NCBI GenBank assembly: GCA_945881835.1
Contig: CAMCVP010000006.1
Span: 1 to 64,000 of the forward strand
DNA length: 64,000 nt
Reading direction: 5' to 3'
From: Chryseobacterium gleum
Lineage (GTDB): Bacteria; Bacteroidota; Bacteroidia; Flavobacteriales_D; Sanyastnellaceae
Part shown: positions 54,693 to 64,000 of the stretch, in pieces
How the letters are laid out: each line of letters opens with the position of its first letter
Position numbering within the stretch: the first letter of the stretch is position 1
Made by a program: the position numbers and the translations under genes
Notes under the pieces: model-generated
Databases searched by the model: none
What the model was told of the DNA's origin: nothing
The model's input: only the letters and a program-made list of their open reading frames with translations

Positions 54693-55424
54693 TTATGCGC
54701 GTGCGCTGGCAATGAAATAATAATCGGTGTTGTTGTTGAAGCTGTTTTCGAAATCATGTCCAGACAGGGGTTTGTTGTTTGAAATGAAATCTTGTAACGT
54801 GAAAACATCCAAACCTATTTCATTGGAGAGAAAAGAATGTAATTCTTGTGGATTGGTGTCATAGAAGTCGCTTGCTCCTTTTCCGCATTCGAAGAGAATG
54901 GTTGGTTTATGGGCTGTAAGCAAATTCTTTGCTCCTTTCAATACACCGAACTCGGCACCTTCCACATCGATCTTCACAAAGTGAATGGGCGTTGTGGTTG
55001 GAATAACATCGTCGAGCAATTTCTTCTCGACAGTGATCTCTTCAATTTCCGGATTGTCGATGTCGTATCTGCGACGCTTGATGCCGCTATAAGCAGGCGC
55101 GTTTTTCACCCATTGAAAAGTTGTTTCTCCAGATGAGTTTGATAAAGCGTAAGGAAAAATAGCAGCCTTGTTTTTGTATTTCGAGCTGAGTTGATTGAAT
55201 AGCGAAGGAATGGGTTCAAACGCGAAGTGCTTTCCTTGCGGAGCGAGCTTTAGCATGTAGTTGAGCATTTCTCCTTTGTGACATCCAATATCAATGCAGT
55301 TGAAGTTGGCTTGAATTCCGTCTTTCATGATTCTACGCGTAAGTCTGTCGTACCTCAAATTTTTCGTTAAATCGAAATGAAGAAATATGAGTAGCTCCCT
55401 TACTGCGTCTTTAATCTGGCTCAC
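54693..55424 (-). CDS. FkbM-family methyltransferase
   Basis: A GTG at 55424 (VSQIKDAVRELLIFLHFDL) opens about 243 residues with CIDIGCHKGEM (SAM binding), FAFEPIPSLFNQLSS and VKIDVEGAEFGVLKGA, all typical of FkbM methyltransferases that act on sugars in polysaccharides or lipids. The frame is open much further upstream, through the hairpin array at 55471 and into the GNAT gene. That part has no methyltransferase homology and is read as non-coding, but the true start is uncertain. Confidence 0.78.
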   Translation of the reverse strand: MSQIKDAVRELLIFLHFDLTKNLRYDRLTRRIMKDGIQANFNCIDIGCHKGEMLNYMLKLAPQGKHFAFEPIPSLFNQLSSKYKNKAAIFPYALSNSSGETTFQWVKNAPAYSGIKRRRYDIDNPEIEEITVEKKLLDDVIPTTTPIHFVKIDVEGAEFGVLKGAKNLLTAHKPTILFECGKGASDFYDTNPQELHSFLSNEIGLDVFTLQDFISNNKPLSGHDFENSFNNNTDYYFIASARA

Positions 55425-55470
55425 GGATAATTTTTTATAAAAATAGGAAACAATTCCATTGAAAATAGAA

Positions 55471-55605
55471 GAATGTGCTGAAGCACGAATGCCCGCTGGG
55501 CGAATCTCTTCGAGGAATGCCGATGGCGAATGCTTCGCGAGGGCACATGGCTGTGCGAGGGTCCGTTGGACGAGGGCAACTTCGTTGCGAAGGTCTTCGA
55601 CGAGG
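55471..55605. repeat. Array of nine variable mini-hairpins with constant 4-bp linkers
   Basis: Nine units, each a perfect inverted repeat, lie head to tail. Stems on the + strand: GTGCT/AGCAC (55475), GCCC/GGGC (55491), CTC/GAG (55506), GCC/GGC (55519), GC/GC (55532), GCACA/TGTGC (55543), GTCC/GGAC (55561), GCAAC/GTTGC (55576), GTC/GAC (55593). In total 34 base pairs, all Watson-Crick. Loops are 2-4 bases. The ten linkers are GAAT (five), GAGG (four) and GAAG (one). The array lies between the GNAT stop (55619) and the FkbM start. On the sense strand four loops read GAA. Confidence 0.92.
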
Positions 55606-55618
55606 GCGGTTTCGATTT

Positions 55619-56104
55619 TCAATTCAACTCCAAACGCATGAGAATATCGCGTTGAAGGTCGGAGCCGAGAAGGAAATCGTGTTCGCCGTTGGAGGTGAAA
55701 CCTAGAGATTTGTAAAATGAAATGGCTTTGGTGTTGTGCTCCCAGACGCCAAGCCACAGGGAAGTGAAGCCTATAGATTTCGATTGTTCCATAGCAAAAT
55801 TCATGAACGTCTTTCCTACTCCAATTCCTTGAAACTTTTTCAAGATGTAAATACGTTCTATTTCGAATGTTTCGGCGATGTTCAATTTCATGTAACCCGA
55901 CAGTTCTTCTTCAACATAAATAAAATAGAATGAAGATGCTAGAGATTCCAATTCGAGCGTGAGTTGATCCAATGAAAGATTGTGCTCGAAGTAATGCGTC
56001 ATGTTTTCCTTCGTGTTGAAGGCGGCGAAGGTTTCTTCAAAGGTGTTCTTCGAAATTTCTTGAAGCCATGACAATTCTGAAAGATGAACCTGAACAATTC
56101 TCAT
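55619..56104 (-). CDS. GNAT-family N-acetyltransferase
   Basis: The 161-residue protein has the GNAT fold: ELSGYMKLNIAETFEIERIYILKKFQGIGVGKTFMNFAMEQSKSIGF contains the acetyl-CoA loop QGIGVG. SLWLGVWEHNTKAISFYKSLGF is the usual C-terminal half. It resembles the RimI/ribosomal-protein or small-molecule acetyltransferases; the substrate is unknown. The hairpin array begins 14 bp after its stop. Confidence 0.85.
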   Translation of the reverse strand: MRIVQVHLSELSWLQEISKNTFEETFAAFNTKENMTHYFEHNLSLDQLTLELESLASSFYFIYVEEELSGYMKLNIAETFEIERIYILKKFQGIGVGKTFMNFAMEQSKSIGFTSLWLGVWEHNTKAISFYKSLGFTSNGEHDFLLGSDLQRDILMRLELN

Positions 56105-56130: not shown

Positions 56131-56598
56131 CTAACGAACAATTCGCGGATCGAAAGCAAGTCGCTCCTTCGAGATGATTTCAATTTTGTGAGCGTCGGGA
56201 TGATGAGGATTAATCAGCAAATTGAACTCTTGAGGGACGATGCTGCTTGGGACTTTCAAGACAGGGGCTTTCAATTTTTGGACAAACGAGTCGCCTAAGT
56301 TTTGCGTAAAAACCGAAGGCGGATGAGCGTTCCAATTCTTGGGAAGATCGGCAATGGACAACATCTGAATCTTCAATGCATCTGGAATTTCAATTTCAAC
56401 CAAATAGCGATCGGTTGGAATTTCCATTACGCCATTCAAATGCGCAGTAATCTCAAGTAAAGCAAGCGCCCTGCTCTCTGAAGTATAGACCATGCGCGTG
56501 TGCTCGCTGTTCCATCGAAAACTTGAAGACATGGATGCACCAATGCCTTTCAAGGTATCTTTCAAATACTTTTTACGATCGATTCTATAAACTAGCAT
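56131..56598 (-). CDS. RES-domain toxin
   Basis: The 155-residue RES domain shows an N-terminal VYRIDRKKY, the Glu in LALLEITAHL and the C-terminal PSSIVPQEFNLLINPHHPDA. RES toxins degrade NAD+ and stall growth. It overlaps its antitoxin gene by one base (TAATG), the normal order being antitoxin first. A type II pair is near certain. Confidence 0.9.
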   Translation of the reverse strand: MLVYRIDRKKYLKDTLKGIGASMSSSFRWNSEHTRMVYTSESRALALLEITAHLNGVMEIPTDRYLVEIEIPDALKIQMLSIADLPKNWNAHPPSVFTQNLGDSFVQKLKAPVLKVPSSIVPQEFNLLINPHHPDAHKIEIISKERLAFDPRIVR

Positions 56599-57029
56599 TA
56601 CGCGAAGTTTCCGTATTCAATTCGATTCAAACACTTGCGCACTTCCGCAACACCGGAGAGGGTATCGAAGAGCGACTGAGGTGTAATGCCGTTCAACGAT
56701 TGATTCGGCATTTCCAACCAACGATTGAATTTCTCTTCTTCGTGGTTGAAGACCTCTTGGCCAAACGATAATAATTCAGAGATGGCAACAACCAGTTCAG
56801 ACTCTTTACTATTTAGAACAGCTTCTTGCCTTTTGTTTAAGTTGTAGGTTGTCTGCGCTATGCCCAAGACACCCAATAAAAATTTAATGGGTCTTTGCAT
56901 GCGCTCGCTAAGCTCGTCTATGGTGGAATAAGGCAAGCCTTTTCGAATGATTTCTATTCTTCCTAAGCTGTTGCCATAAGCCATGGCGCTTTCTTGAAGA
57001 ACCGATTTTTTGGAATTGGAAGATTTCAT
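56598..57029 (-). CDS. Xre/MbcA/ParS-type antitoxin (DUF2384 family)
   Basis: The start at 57029 (MKSSNSKKS) gives 143 residues; an earlier in-frame ATG at 57071 overlaps the operator. The C-terminal part SELLSFGQEVFNHEEEKFNRWLEMPNQSLNGITPQSLFDT is the DUF2384 toxin-binding region, and the N-terminal half should bind DNA. It likely represses its own operon through the palindrome directly upstream. Confidence 0.88.
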   Translation of the reverse strand: MKSSNSKKSVLQESAMAYGNSLGRIEIIRKGLPYSTIDELSERMQRPIKFLLGVLGIAQTTYNLNKRQEAVLNSKESELVVAISELLSFGQEVFNHEEEKFNRWLEMPNQSLNGITPQSLFDTLSGVAEVRKCLNRIEYGNFA

Positions 57030-57040
57030 AAGTAGCAATT

Positions 57041-57060
57041 TTGTTGTAAAGATACAACAA
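57041..57060. promoter_or_regulatory. Candidate operator of the RES/Xre operon
   Basis: TTGTTGTA and TACAACAA form a perfect 8-bp inverted repeat around AAGA, 12 bp before the antitoxin start. A further half-site TGTTGCAA begins at 57064. The minus-strand promoter-like TATCTTTA overlaps the palindrome, so bound antitoxin would block transcription. Confidence 0.7.
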
Positions 57061-57073
57061 ATATGTTGCAAAC

Positions 57074-61208: not shown

Positions 61209-61781
61209 ATGAAAAAATCAACGAAATACATGATAGCTGGAACCGCGTTTTGTCTGCTCGGTCTTCATTTTTCGTTGAGTGCGCTCTATGCTTTCCGCAG
61301 GCATTACGACATTCCAATTGTAGAATCTTTGGCGAATAAATACGGATTCCCCTTTTTCCATCAGGGATATAGCCTGTTTGTGCCTATGGCGGAATTCGAT
61401 GATTTCATTGAGGTTCGGTACCGCGAAGGCGGCAATTGGACCGAATTTCAAGAGATTGGTCAGCGCTACGAATATGCTGTAGATAGTAAACTTCGTCAGT
61501 TCGAAGAATTCACTTCTGCGAATTTGAATAATCAAATCGTCAATAATTTATACTGGAAGGAAGGTGTTCGTCAACTTGAACGGATTGAACAATCGACCGA
61601 TTACGGCAGGGCTGTTTATTTCTGTCAGCGTCTGGAACGTGCCAAGCGCAAGCTCACTCATTCGCATACTTACATAGATTCCATGCAGGTTCGCATGGCA
61701 TTTCATTTTCATCCGTTGAACGGCGAGCAGAAGAACGATGTGTTTGAATTCAGTAAAGTTTTGGTTGAAATAGACAAATGA
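61209..61781 (+). CDS. Hypothetical single-pass membrane protein paired with HTTM-like gene
   Basis: From ATG 61209 (MKKSTKYMIAGTAFCLLGLHFSLSALYAF) the protein is about 190 residues: one N-terminal membrane helix and a polar, likely periplasmic domain with VRYREGGNWTEFQEIG and FCQRLERAKRKLTHSH. No family is recognised. Its end overlaps the HTTM-like gene by four bases, so the two are probably made and used together, as partner subunits of the HTTM protein; that is inferred. Confidence 0.6.
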   Translation: MKKSTKYMIAGTAFCLLGLHFSLSALYAFRRHYDIPIVESLANKYGFPFFHQGYSLFVPMAEFDDFIEVRYREGGNWTEFQEIGQRYEYAVDSKLRQFEEFTSANLNNQIVNNLYWKEGVRQLERIEQSTDYGRAVYFCQRLERAKRKLTHSHTYIDSMQVRMAFHFHPLNGEQKNDVFEFSKVLVEIDK

Positions 61782-62614
61782 AGAAGCGCATTGAAAATTA
61801 TATAGAAGGGTTATTCGTTCCATACGCTTCCTCTTCGAACGAGCGTATGTTCGTGAGTTTAGTCTATGCGTGGTTCGTCTTTTTCGCCTTTTGGAATTGG
61901 CATTCGGTGTGGTTGATTTGGGGGGAAGACAGCGTGTGCATTCGTTACGGCGCTGGCGATACGCGTTTGAACAATTTGGTTTACGCGTTGATGTATAATT
62001 TAAGTTGGTTCAAGCCCGTGTTTATTGTCCATTTGGTTGTTTCCTTTTTCTCGATCTTCCATTTTCGAGGGGTCTTTGTTTTTCGAGGACTAGCATGGCT
62101 TTCCGCTTTGTGGATATATTATGCGGGAATAAACGCCATGAATGCGGGTTATGTGTATATGATGCTTTTGATGTTTTATGCCATCCCTTATTCAGCAATG
62201 GCGACCAAACCCTTTTGGGCGTTTTTATCACGATTAAGTTTGCTTGCAGCGGGTATTCAGGTTGGATTAATCTACTTCTATACTTCGTTGTATAAAGTTA
62301 CCAGTTGGCAATGGCTTAGTGGCGAGGCTATCTATTTGACATTGATTAGCGATTGGTTTAGTAATGAGACTATACGTGGAATTACGCAGGCCCTGCCCTA
62401 TTTCCTGTCGGTAATTCTTGCTTATATCGTTATGCTTTTTCAACTCACTTTTCCAATTATAATTAATTGGAAGAAGACCCGGAAATATGCCGTAATCTTA
62501 GGTGTTTGTATTCACTTCTACATAGGCATCTTCATGCACATGTGGGATTTTGCAGTGGCGATGATGGTGCCTTACACGCTTTTTGCAAATCGTGATGACA
62601 TCGCGCAGCGATAA
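61778..62614 (+). CDS. HTTM-like multi-pass membrane protein
   Basis: The 278-residue protein has about six to seven helices with many aromatic residues (FFAFWNWHSVWLIWG, GLAWLSALWIYYAGINAMNAGYVYMMLL, GLIYFYTSLYKVTSWQWLSGEAIYLTL). It resembles the HTTM (horizontally transferred transmembrane, gamma-carboxylase-like) family, especially in the YFYTSLYKV region. The last codons (DDIAQR, stop) are made from the first unit of the hairpin array at 62594. Confidence 0.65.
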   Translation: MKKRIENYIEGLFVPYASSSNERMFVSLVYAWFVFFAFWNWHSVWLIWGEDSVCIRYGAGDTRLNNLVYALMYNLSWFKPVFIVHLVVSFFSIFHFRGVFVFRGLAWLSALWIYYAGINAMNAGYVYMMLLMFYAIPYSAMATKPFWAFLSRLSLLAAGIQVGLIYFYTSLYKVTSWQWLSGEAIYLTLISDWFSNETIRGITQALPYFLSVILAYIVMLFQLTFPIIINWKKTRKYAVILGVCIHFYIGIFMHMWDFAVAMMVPYTLFANRDDIAQR

Positions 62615-62680
62615 TGACACAACACGTTGTGATGACAGCGGAGCTGATGACCGACGAAGTCGGATGACCCTTCGGGAAGG
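62594..62680. repeat. Array of five variable mini-hairpins with constant GATGAC linkers
   Basis: Each unit is preceded by GATGAC (once AATGAC). Stems on the + strand: ATCGC/GCGAT (62600), ACAAC/GTTGT (62619), AGC/GCT (62637), CGAC/GTCG (62652), CCTTC/GAAGG (62669). All 22 pairs are Watson-Crick; loops are GCA, AC, GGA, GAA and GG. The first unit supplies the end and stop codon of the HTTM-like gene, and the last stops two bases before the AlgH stop codon. The logic is the same as for the array at 55471. Confidence 0.92.
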
Positions 62681-62682
62681 AA

Positions 62683-63255
62683 TCAATTCAAATTCGGATC
62701 CTCGGGGAAATTAGAGAGTAGCTTTCCTTTCGGGCCGAGGCGTTCCATAACTTCCTTCCAGACGTTGTTCTCTTTCGAGTTCATAATTAATTTGGAAGGG
62801 ACATTCACCACGAACCAAGACTTGGAGGTTATTTCTTCTTGAAGTTGTCCAATAGACCAGCCGCTGTAACCTACGAAAAAACGAATGGCATTTTCCGGAA
62901 GGGTTCCTTCTTCAATGCGTTCGCGAATGCGAGCGAAATCTCCGCCGTACCAAACACCTTCCACAATGGGCGTGCTTCCTTCAATCTCTTCTCCCAACGA
63001 ATGAATGTAAAAGAGACTGTCGTTCTTTACGGGTCCGCCTAGGCTCACACGTCCAGGCATCTCTGGGAAATTTGCAATGATCTTGCTAATCGGAAGGTCT
63101 ATGTAATTGTTCAACACGAATCCGAATGACCCCTCTTCGTTGTTCTCGCACATGAGAATAACGGTCCGATGAAAAAACGGATCGCTGATGTAAGGCTCAG
63201 ACAACAAGACTTGTCCACGCTTCGGCACAGTGCTATCGCTCGGTTGAAAATTCAC
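62683..63255 (-). CDS. YqgE/AlgH family protein
   Basis: A GTG at 63255 (VNFQPSDSTVPKRGQVLLSEPYISDPFF) gives 190 residues; TTG 63300 would overlap the divergent gene. Family stretches: RGQVLLSEPYISDPFFHRTVIL, GSFGFVLNN, SLGGPV, RFFVGYSGWSIGQLQEEI. The UPF0301/AlgH family has a stable fold but an unsettled role. It converges with the HTTM-like gene across the hairpin array. Confidence 0.9.
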   Translation of the reverse strand: MNFQPSDSTVPKRGQVLLSEPYISDPFFHRTVILMCENNEEGSFGFVLNNYIDLPISKIIANFPEMPGRVSLGGPVKNDSLFYIHSLGEEIEGSTPIVEGVWYGGDFARIRERIEEGTLPENAIRFFVGYSGWSIGQLQEEITSKSWFVVNVPSKLIMNSKENNVWKEVMERLGPKGKLLSNFPEDPNLN

Positions 63256-63276
63256 AGGGCTAAAATAGGAATTCCT

Positions 63277-63284
63277 TACTTTCG
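63277..63284 (+). promoter_or_regulatory. Weak -7-like box TACTTTCG
   Basis: One base off TAnnTTTG, four bases before the ATG at 63289, as in three other genes of this window. Confidence 0.3.
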
Positions 63285-63288
63285 CAAC

Positions 63289-64000
63289 ATGCGTTTTCAA
63301 TTATTAGTTTTTCTTTTCCTTCTTCCATTTGTATCCCTTGCCCAACCTGGCGGAGGAGGCGGTGCTTACTTTCGACATTTCGGAGTTCCCGGAAAAGATT
63401 ATACTTCTGAATTATGCTTGAAGCACATGAAACTGCAGCTCATGAGCGGCGAACGTTCTAACATCATCGATTCAGAACAAAAAGAAATTCGCAGCTTGAA
63501 TCTCGAACACAACGGTTGGTCGGCTCGTTACGCTGGACTAGATTACCGCCAAGTCGAAAACCATTACCGCTTGGTTTGGAAGGAAGACAATGATTCCATG
63601 GTGGTGATCTTCACGAACCTTATGCATGAAAACGGAGCGGGATATTCAGAGACGTTCGACAGTCTGGTCTTTATGCCGGGGCATTATGAATTGAAACTTT
63701 CACTTGAACCTCGCTTTAACGGAGCAAGTTTCACGCCTACAACGGCTTCCATCTGGTTCAAAAGAAATATTGCAATGAAGTTAGAACCAAAAATTCCAAC
63801 TTATTCCTTCTATTACTACTACAACGCCGCGCATCAAGAAAATTCGCAAGTCAAATACGAAGACTCAGAACCTCATTTGAACAGGGCGCAACAAATGGCC
63901 GAAACGTTCGAGCAACAAAAATTAGTGCTCACGGAACGCATTCGCTTTCATCGTCTAAAATTCAATAATGAAACAGCCTTGAGTCTTGCTTTAGAGTTAG
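63289..64000 (+). CDS. Exported protein, 3' end beyond the window
   Basis: The ATG at 63289 opens a signal peptide (MRFQLLVFLFLLPFVSLAQ) and a frame that stays open to the window edge (237 codons). The mature part contains GGGGGAYFRHFGVPGKDYTSELCL and a beta-rich region with SFYYYYNAAHQENSQV, then a charged stretch (RAQQMAETFEQQKLVLTERIRFHRLKF). No family is recognised. The gene is divergent from algH and incomplete here. Confidence 0.65.
   Translation, partial: MRFQLLVFLFLLPFVSLAQPGGGGGAYFRHFGVPGKDYTSELCLKHMKLQLMSGERSNIIDSEQKEIRSLNLEHNGWSARYAGLDYRQVENHYRLVWKEDNDSMVVIFTNLMHENGAGYSETFDSLVFMPGHYELKLSLEPRFNGASFTPTTASIWFKRNIAMKLEPKIPTYSFYYYYNAAHQENSQVKYEDSEPHLNRAQQMAETFEQQKLVLTERIRFHRLKFNNETALSLALEL

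Follow-up and report, generated by a model that had tools for sequence, protein, structure and literature searches.

The spacer between a GNAT acetyltransferase gene and an FkbM-type methyltransferase gene in a 64 kb stretch of Flavobacteriales DNA (the window, i.e. the whole stretch analysed) is occupied by nine consecutive mini-hairpins on short constant linkers. It raises the question of how base pairing can be kept in units whose stem sequences all differ. Arrays of this kind are dispersed over the genome, fall into classes, have a polarity, follow a loop rule on one particular strand, turn over at fixed sites and are confined to one genus. The preferred reading, whose chances are judged to be even, is that they are extragenic DNA repeats of the REP/BIME kind, copied as folded linker-plus-hairpin units in single-stranded DNA.

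Structure of the array

The nine units described at 55471-55605 in an earlier note on this DNA were recovered with exactly the stems and linkers claimed. Under a model of perfect hairpins plus exactly 4 bp, the top-scoring chain in the window was 55475-55601 (9 units, 34 Watson-Crick pairs), with stems of 5, 4, 3, 3, 2, 5, 4, 5 and 3 bp and with linkers GAAT (five times), then GAGG/GAAG. Its score was 41, compared with 19-30 for the best chain per shuffle in 12 dinucleotide shuffles of the window. The forward strand reads gaat GTGCT(ga)AGCAC gaat GCCC(gct)GGGC gaat CTC(ttc)GAG gaat GCC(gat)GGC gaat GC(ttc)GC gagg, and continues GCACA(tggc)TGTGC gagg GTCC(gtt)GGAC gagg GCAAC(ttc)GTTGC gaag GTC(ttc)GAC gagg. 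In the minus-strand reading, which is sense for the GNAT and FkbM genes, four loops are GAA and the heptamer GCGAAGC is present at 55532-55538, both as the earlier note had stated. An Rfam search of the window at the gathering score returned tRNAs only and no match at the array. The features of the locus are listed in Table 1.

A second array in the window, at 62601-62676, consists of the hairpins TCGC(gca)GCGA, CACAAC(ac)GTTGTG, CAGC(gga)GCTG, CCGAC(gaa)GTCGG and CCC(ttc)GGG. It fills a convergent intergene, and its first hairpin overlaps the last codons (3' end) of the upstream gene. Elsewhere in the window (56131-57071), a RES-domain gene lies beside an Xre/MbcA/ParS-type antitoxin gene, probably forming a toxin-antitoxin pair.

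Table 1. Features of the two arrays in the window and of their flanking genes
Feature	Position	Strand	Remarks
FkbM-type methyltransferase gene	54693..55469	-	downstream of array; start codon position approximate
Class A mini-hairpin array	55471..55605	-	9 hairpins; linkers CCTC/CTTC then ATTC (minus-strand reading)
Unit GTGCT(TC)AGCAC	55475..55486	-	unit, ATTC linkers and next downstream hairpin common to locus L058
Unit GCCC(AGC)GGGC	55491..55501	-	
Unit CTC(GAA)GAG	55506..55514	-	
Unit GCC(ATC)GGC	55519..55527	-	
Unit GC(GAA)GC	55532..55538	-	at CCTC-to-ATTC linker switch; GC(GAA)GC-ATTC-GC also readable as GCGAA(GCA)TTCGC
Unit GCACA(GCCA)TGTGC	55543..55556	-	tetraloop GNNA, not GNRA
Unit GTCC(AAC)GGAC	55561..55571	-	
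Unit GCAAC(GAA)GTTGC	55576..55588	-	
Head unit GTC(GAA)GAC	55593..55601	-	constant first hairpin of class A arrays
GNAT acetyltransferase gene	55619..56104	-	stop 17 bp before head unit
HTTM-like membrane protein gene	61778..62614	+	convergent with next gene across class B array; just below Pfam cut-off
Class B array, linker ATGA/TCAT	62601..62676	.	between two convergent genes
AlgH-like (DUF179) gene	62683..63300	-	convergent partner of HTTM-like gene

Classes, abundance and distribution

The search of the genome and its relatives that the earlier note had proposed yielded dozens of arrays in the 2.53 Mb Flavobacteriales genome to which the window belongs, and arrays in seven of its eight congeners as well. 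Used as a query against the same genome, the window array matched 17 places. At least four classes are well supported, each with its own linker: A (ATTC/CCTC), B (TCAT/ATGA), C (TTGA/TCAA) and D (five-letter GGAAT/ATTCC); TTTG-type and AGA-type linkers define less certain classes. In structural scanning, class B stems start with C and class C stems with T, and constant 6-bp junctions (CATTCG, GTCATC, ATTGAT) occur at every unit. Clusters in which three hairpins share the same 4-nt linker numbered 33 in a 434 kb sample of the own genome (0.3 after shuffling) and 29 in an additional 265 kb (0.6 after shuffling). A strict count over 716 kb of own-genome stretches, which had partly been selected because they had matches, gave 38 class A, 16 class B, 13 class C and 29 class D arrays. 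Matches to the linker patterns in the own genome amounted to 152 for class B and 57 for class A.

Class A DNA matches were found in seven of the eight other genomes of the genus, the eighth (G007) having one decayed copy, and in none of 31 other genomes at the family and order level. The class A and B linker patterns gave mostly zero matches in 294 other Bacteroidia genomes; the higher counts listed among these were low-complexity or coincidental repeats lacking the hairpin design. Stretches sampled outside the genus (56 stretches from 56 genomes, about 0.96 Mb) contained four clusters with 4-8 nt linkers, none of them convincing, which is the level of the shuffled background. A reversed control pattern led to long TACTGAY-like heptad tandem repeats in G250, a genome of another family (e.g. 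C2:14337-14788), which are unrelated. The named records with orthologous flanks are metagenome-assembled genomes (MAGs), most of them titled Flavobacteriales bacterium, and isolate names suggest that the genus comprises lake bacteria. Two MAG records (L061, L063) are titled Chryseobacterium gleum; their FkbM genes are 92-94% identical to those of the genus, and the titles look wrong.

The copies are many and mostly intergenic, which is the distribution expected of REP sequences. Arrays were present in 20 of 50 convergent, 39 of 140 tandem and 10 of 61 divergent intergenes. They reach about 17 units in length and are direct repeats, most class A arrays being direct throughout, and inverted halves occur in some class B and C arrays. 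A 17-unit class C array (L017, 5459-5709), its second half inverted relative to the first, fills a convergent intergene.

Pairing and polarity

Pairing was assessed on units delimited by linkers alone, i.e. with pairing not a selection criterion. All 14 distinct class A 13-mers were hairpins (1.4 expected), as were 13 of 17 distinct 11-mers (3.6 expected; own-genome samples, expectations from column shuffles). Genus-wide, 369 linker-bounded class A units were paired and 48 had one mismatch; a further 76 stretches with at least two mismatches include unrelated background. Units measure 7-19 nt with stems of 2-7 bp, and 34 distinct stem sequences were tallied in class A. The proposal of the earlier note, structure over sequence, is supported in so far as the structure outlasts the stem sequence: stems vary while pairing is kept in the 369 units, and at orthologous loci entire stems have changed and still pair.

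Class A arrays are polar. The head unit GTCNNNGAC, i.e. GTC(NNN)GAC, opened 47 of 82 arrays, compared with 29 occurrences among 364 later units (nominal p about 1e-21), and AAATC or a similar sequence frequently precedes it. Linkers switched from CCTC to ATTC 14 times and in the reverse direction three times. Class D arrays often lie directly upstream of the class A head, and the last class A unit is often trailed by pyrimidine tracts such as TTCCCCTCTCTTACC. The tract TTCCCCTCTCTTAACCTTCTCTTACC, or one similar to it, recurs on the 3' side of numerous class A arrays and at L134, L135 and L225; tracts of this type are also present at orthologous sites that have no class A array.

Turnover at orthologous sites

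Genes flanking orthologous sites remain about 80-98% identical, while the arrays between them show turnover of units or of entire classes, in which pairing is retained. This includes the FkbM boundary, where the gain, loss and change of units that the earlier note had suggested looking for was observed between relatives: genes 92-98% identical to those of the window are preceded by very different arrays, ranging between one or two and well over ten units, or by no array. At a second boundary, the terminal hairpin TTGCTCT(aat)AGAGCAA is kept in five species beside differing unit strings, and two species have no array. One convergent intergene carries class B in G000, G001, G003, G005 and G008 and class C, at the same place, in G004 and G006. 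A single unit has been gained or lost in tandem between the orthologous sites L143 and L144, higher-order repeats occur at L060, and arm changes were seen on both sides of stems.

Across 134 flank-defined array pairs, homologous units differed at 6.4% of stem positions, 15% of loop positions and 9% of linker positions, and the stem-pair changes comprised 36 compensated and 30 uncompensated cases. Uncompensated changes, which the earlier note had counted against its proposal, therefore exist, whereas shuffled sequences, its second control, gave no such arrays. Some of the compensated cases are probably unit replacements (swaps), so the counts support maintenance of pairing and do not thereby establish point-by-point compensation. 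In G007 a recognisable but mostly mispaired array remains at one orthologous site, an array is absent from another region and class A sequence matches vanish, which suggests that array upkeep has been lost in this genome.

Loops and fold

In each class, GNA/GNNA loops (N variable) prefer one strand, which is defined by the linker. The ratio of GNA to TNC was 61:3 in class C (GAA 41, GTA 9, GCA 8, GGA 3), 32:1 in class D (GGAAT) and 28:9 in class B. CCTC-linked class A units had 27:6 for triloops and 35:1 for tetraloops (GNNA:TNNC), and ATTC-linked class A units showed a weak bias only (75:52). With the strict linkers used for the class A tally, 36 of 47 tetraloops overall were GNNA and one was TNNC; nine of the 36 fit the GNRA pattern of RNA. 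The p-values for loops are nominal because the counts are drawn from paralogous copies. According to PMC4686876, DNA mini-hairpins are extraordinarily stable, as a rule, if they combine a GNA or GNNA loop with two or more G-C pairs. Most class A and B stems have at least two G-C pairs, many of the A-T rich class C and D stems do not, and the loops are mostly closed by C-G. Separately, class A favours the C-rich strand, with fewer G than C (49 vs 26, p 0.007; own and genus stretches), and classes B-D do not.

Class A arrays in tandem intergenes were oriented 15 times in the sense and 19 times in the antisense direction of transcription. For the window array, the RNA folding energy was ordinary (z -0.99 and -0.53), and the DNA folding energy was slightly better than that of shuffled sequence (z -1.35). 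The adherence to the GNA/GNNA rule on a linker-defined strand and the lack of a bias toward the transcribed strand point to a fold of single-stranded DNA, which would be the relevant one in vivo. The structured RNA 3' region offered as an option in the earlier note is not supported by these data, as orientation ignores the genes and tetraloops are of the GNNA and not the GNRA type, and a reading at the RNA level was dropped.

Candidate enzymes

Genes for Y1 HUH transposases were found in four of the nine genomes of the genus; none was found in the array-bearing genomes G002, G003 (96% complete), G005 and G008. Mini-hairpin arrays lie near five of the six Y1 loci examined, an adjacency that by our own estimate is not significant given the array density. 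The Y1 genes are more tightly flanked by larger, different hairpins (GGCATGGG..CCCATGC; GCCCC..GGGGCGACA). Such larger flanking hairpins, including CCCCCAG..CTGGGGG, at the loci L157, L158, L159, L160, L161 and L109 are probably a separate REP-like family. The Y1 proteins of the genus carry YIxNQxxHH (Y---Q--HH); in PMC6006769, Y---Q--HH is the signature of subclass 1.2, which is generally without typical IS200 terminal structures. Owing to the four array-bearing genomes in which none was found and to the non-significant adjacency, the Y1 transposase was not accepted as the proven agent, and as the best candidate for the copying enzyme it is a speculative one. Copying by reverse transcriptase was set aside, as RVT_1 was found in none of the nine genomes. 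The hairpin-templated copying suggested in the earlier note is conceivable.

Origin of the arrays

The arrays are built from units of a constant 4-5 nt linker and a tiny hairpin, in which the linker with the adjacent outer stem base, the ability to pair and the GNA/GNNA loop on one strand are the conserved parts, and they are found preferentially near gene 3' ends. In the REP-like reading, the substrate for recognition and copying would be a unit folded in single-stranded DNA, tagged by the sequence of its linker and by the structure of its hairpin, in a manner similar to the recognition of REP sequences by TnpA-REP. Arrays could then lengthen, shorten or swap units at constant linkers. We infer that pairing is kept through substrate recognition: it would persist because only units that fold stay substrates, and perhaps one arm templates repair of the other. 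The mostly unpaired array of G007 is what would be expected if upkeep needs something that was lost there. A more far-reaching version, possible but on balance doubtful, is a self-propagating single-stranded mini-hairpin system, in which a dedicated ssDNA enzyme of the genus, reading linker and fold only, would insert, delete and alter units at set positions between genes; the stem sequence would be free, and each linker class would be a separate lineage with its own specificity.

The main rival is an enzyme-free origin as a replication-born minisatellite, by slippage and template switching at hairpins and without dedicated enzyme or function, in which quasipalindrome correction would make the arms perfect. 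Rather unlikely as it is, it is consistent with the tandem gain or loss of one unit, the higher-order repeats, the one-mismatch intermediates beside perfect class A units, the arm changes on both sides and the lack of RVT_1 genes in the genus, but it leaves unexplained the confinement to a genus, the several linker classes, the constant head unit and the dispersal to many unlinked sites. Selection at the RNA level, by which 3'-UTR or intergenic modules would protect mRNA ends or shape termination, would fit the intergenic position, the enrichment between convergent genes and the local hairpins predicted in RNA; the balanced orientation, the ordinary folding energies, the loop type and the absence of an Rfam match at the array make it improbable, and stems of 2-3 bp are negligible in RNA. 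Constant 6-bp junctions at every unit and the clustering of arrays between genes might also suggest protein-binding or nucleoid-organising sites in double-stranded DNA, with linker and outer stem bases as operator and palindromy for dimer binding. That is very improbable, since stem length and sequence vary freely, the unit spacing is not helical and double-stranded operators leave strand-specific GNA/GNNA loops unexplained. The assemblies are MAGs, and lone arrays with stems of 2-3 bp are unimpressive on inspection; chance or an assembly artefact is nevertheless scarcely credible in view of the excess of clusters over shuffled sequence and of the arrays at the same gene boundaries both in other genomes of the genus and in named MAG records of independent origin.

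If the units are indeed copied in folded form, the GNA/GNNA rule, established for DNA mini-hairpins by biophysicists in vitro, would be at work in nature on the scale of genomes, and the arrays would form a repeat family whose membership is set by fold and linker and not by sequence. How REP-like palindromes spread and keep their pairing is an old question, which becomes testable here through orthologous sites with known flanks in nine genomes.

Comparison with known systems

The earlier note knew of no element of this design, and none is described in the open-access literature searched. A CRISPR array is likewise polar with units separated by a constant element; the element kept constant here measures 4 nt, and what varies is a palindrome from a small vocabulary. 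The d(GCGAAGC) mini-hairpins, whose exact heptamer is present in the window, share the GNA/GNNA rule with G-C stem pairs, but are known from biophysics and aptamer engineering and not, in the literature found, as a dispersed genomic repeat. The ends of IS200/IS605 elements combine a hairpin with a tetranucleotide guide, read by the Y1 HUH transposase on single-stranded DNA (PMC6006769). The present units also pair a hairpin with a tetranucleotide; unlike those ends, they occur many to a site, and no transposase-bearing element is bounded by them.

Atypical flanking hairpins are reported in PMC6006769 for the Bacteroidetes TnpA-Y1 subclass 2.6, and for class 3 (CnGA foot). The link to Bacteroidetes given there for subclass 2.6, and the weaker, non-GTAG secondary structures of which copies occur at other places in the genome, resemble the present case, whereas the Y1 proteins found here bear the signature that the same source assigns to subclass 1.2. 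Its treatment of subclass 2.6 and class 3 contains no arrays of free-stem units on constant linkers.

The closest likeness is to REP, BIME and REPIN sequences, which likewise consist of palindromes scattered between genes, have a constant tetranucleotide at the foot of the hairpin and form clusters and mosaics; the inverted halves of such mosaics have a counterpart here in some class B and C arrays. TnpA-REP (RAYT) acts on one strand of single-stranded DNA (PMC8266576). REP sequences have this cognate transposase, whereas the Y1 link here is a candidate only. The present arrays further differ from them in stems of 2-7 bp of free sequence, an identical linker on both sides, direct-repeat arrays and GNA/GNNA loops. 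The REP tag GTAG or CGTC is absent from the hairpin foot, where the linkers are ATTC/CCTC, TCAT, TTGA and GGAAT, and units of 7-19 nt fall short of the 20-50 nt palindromes of conserved sequence typical of REP. Lacking both this tag and a palindrome of conserved sequence, the arrays are not filed as REP; they are regarded as a new variant within the extragenic palindromic repeats, one that works like REP and conserves fold and linker in place of sequence.
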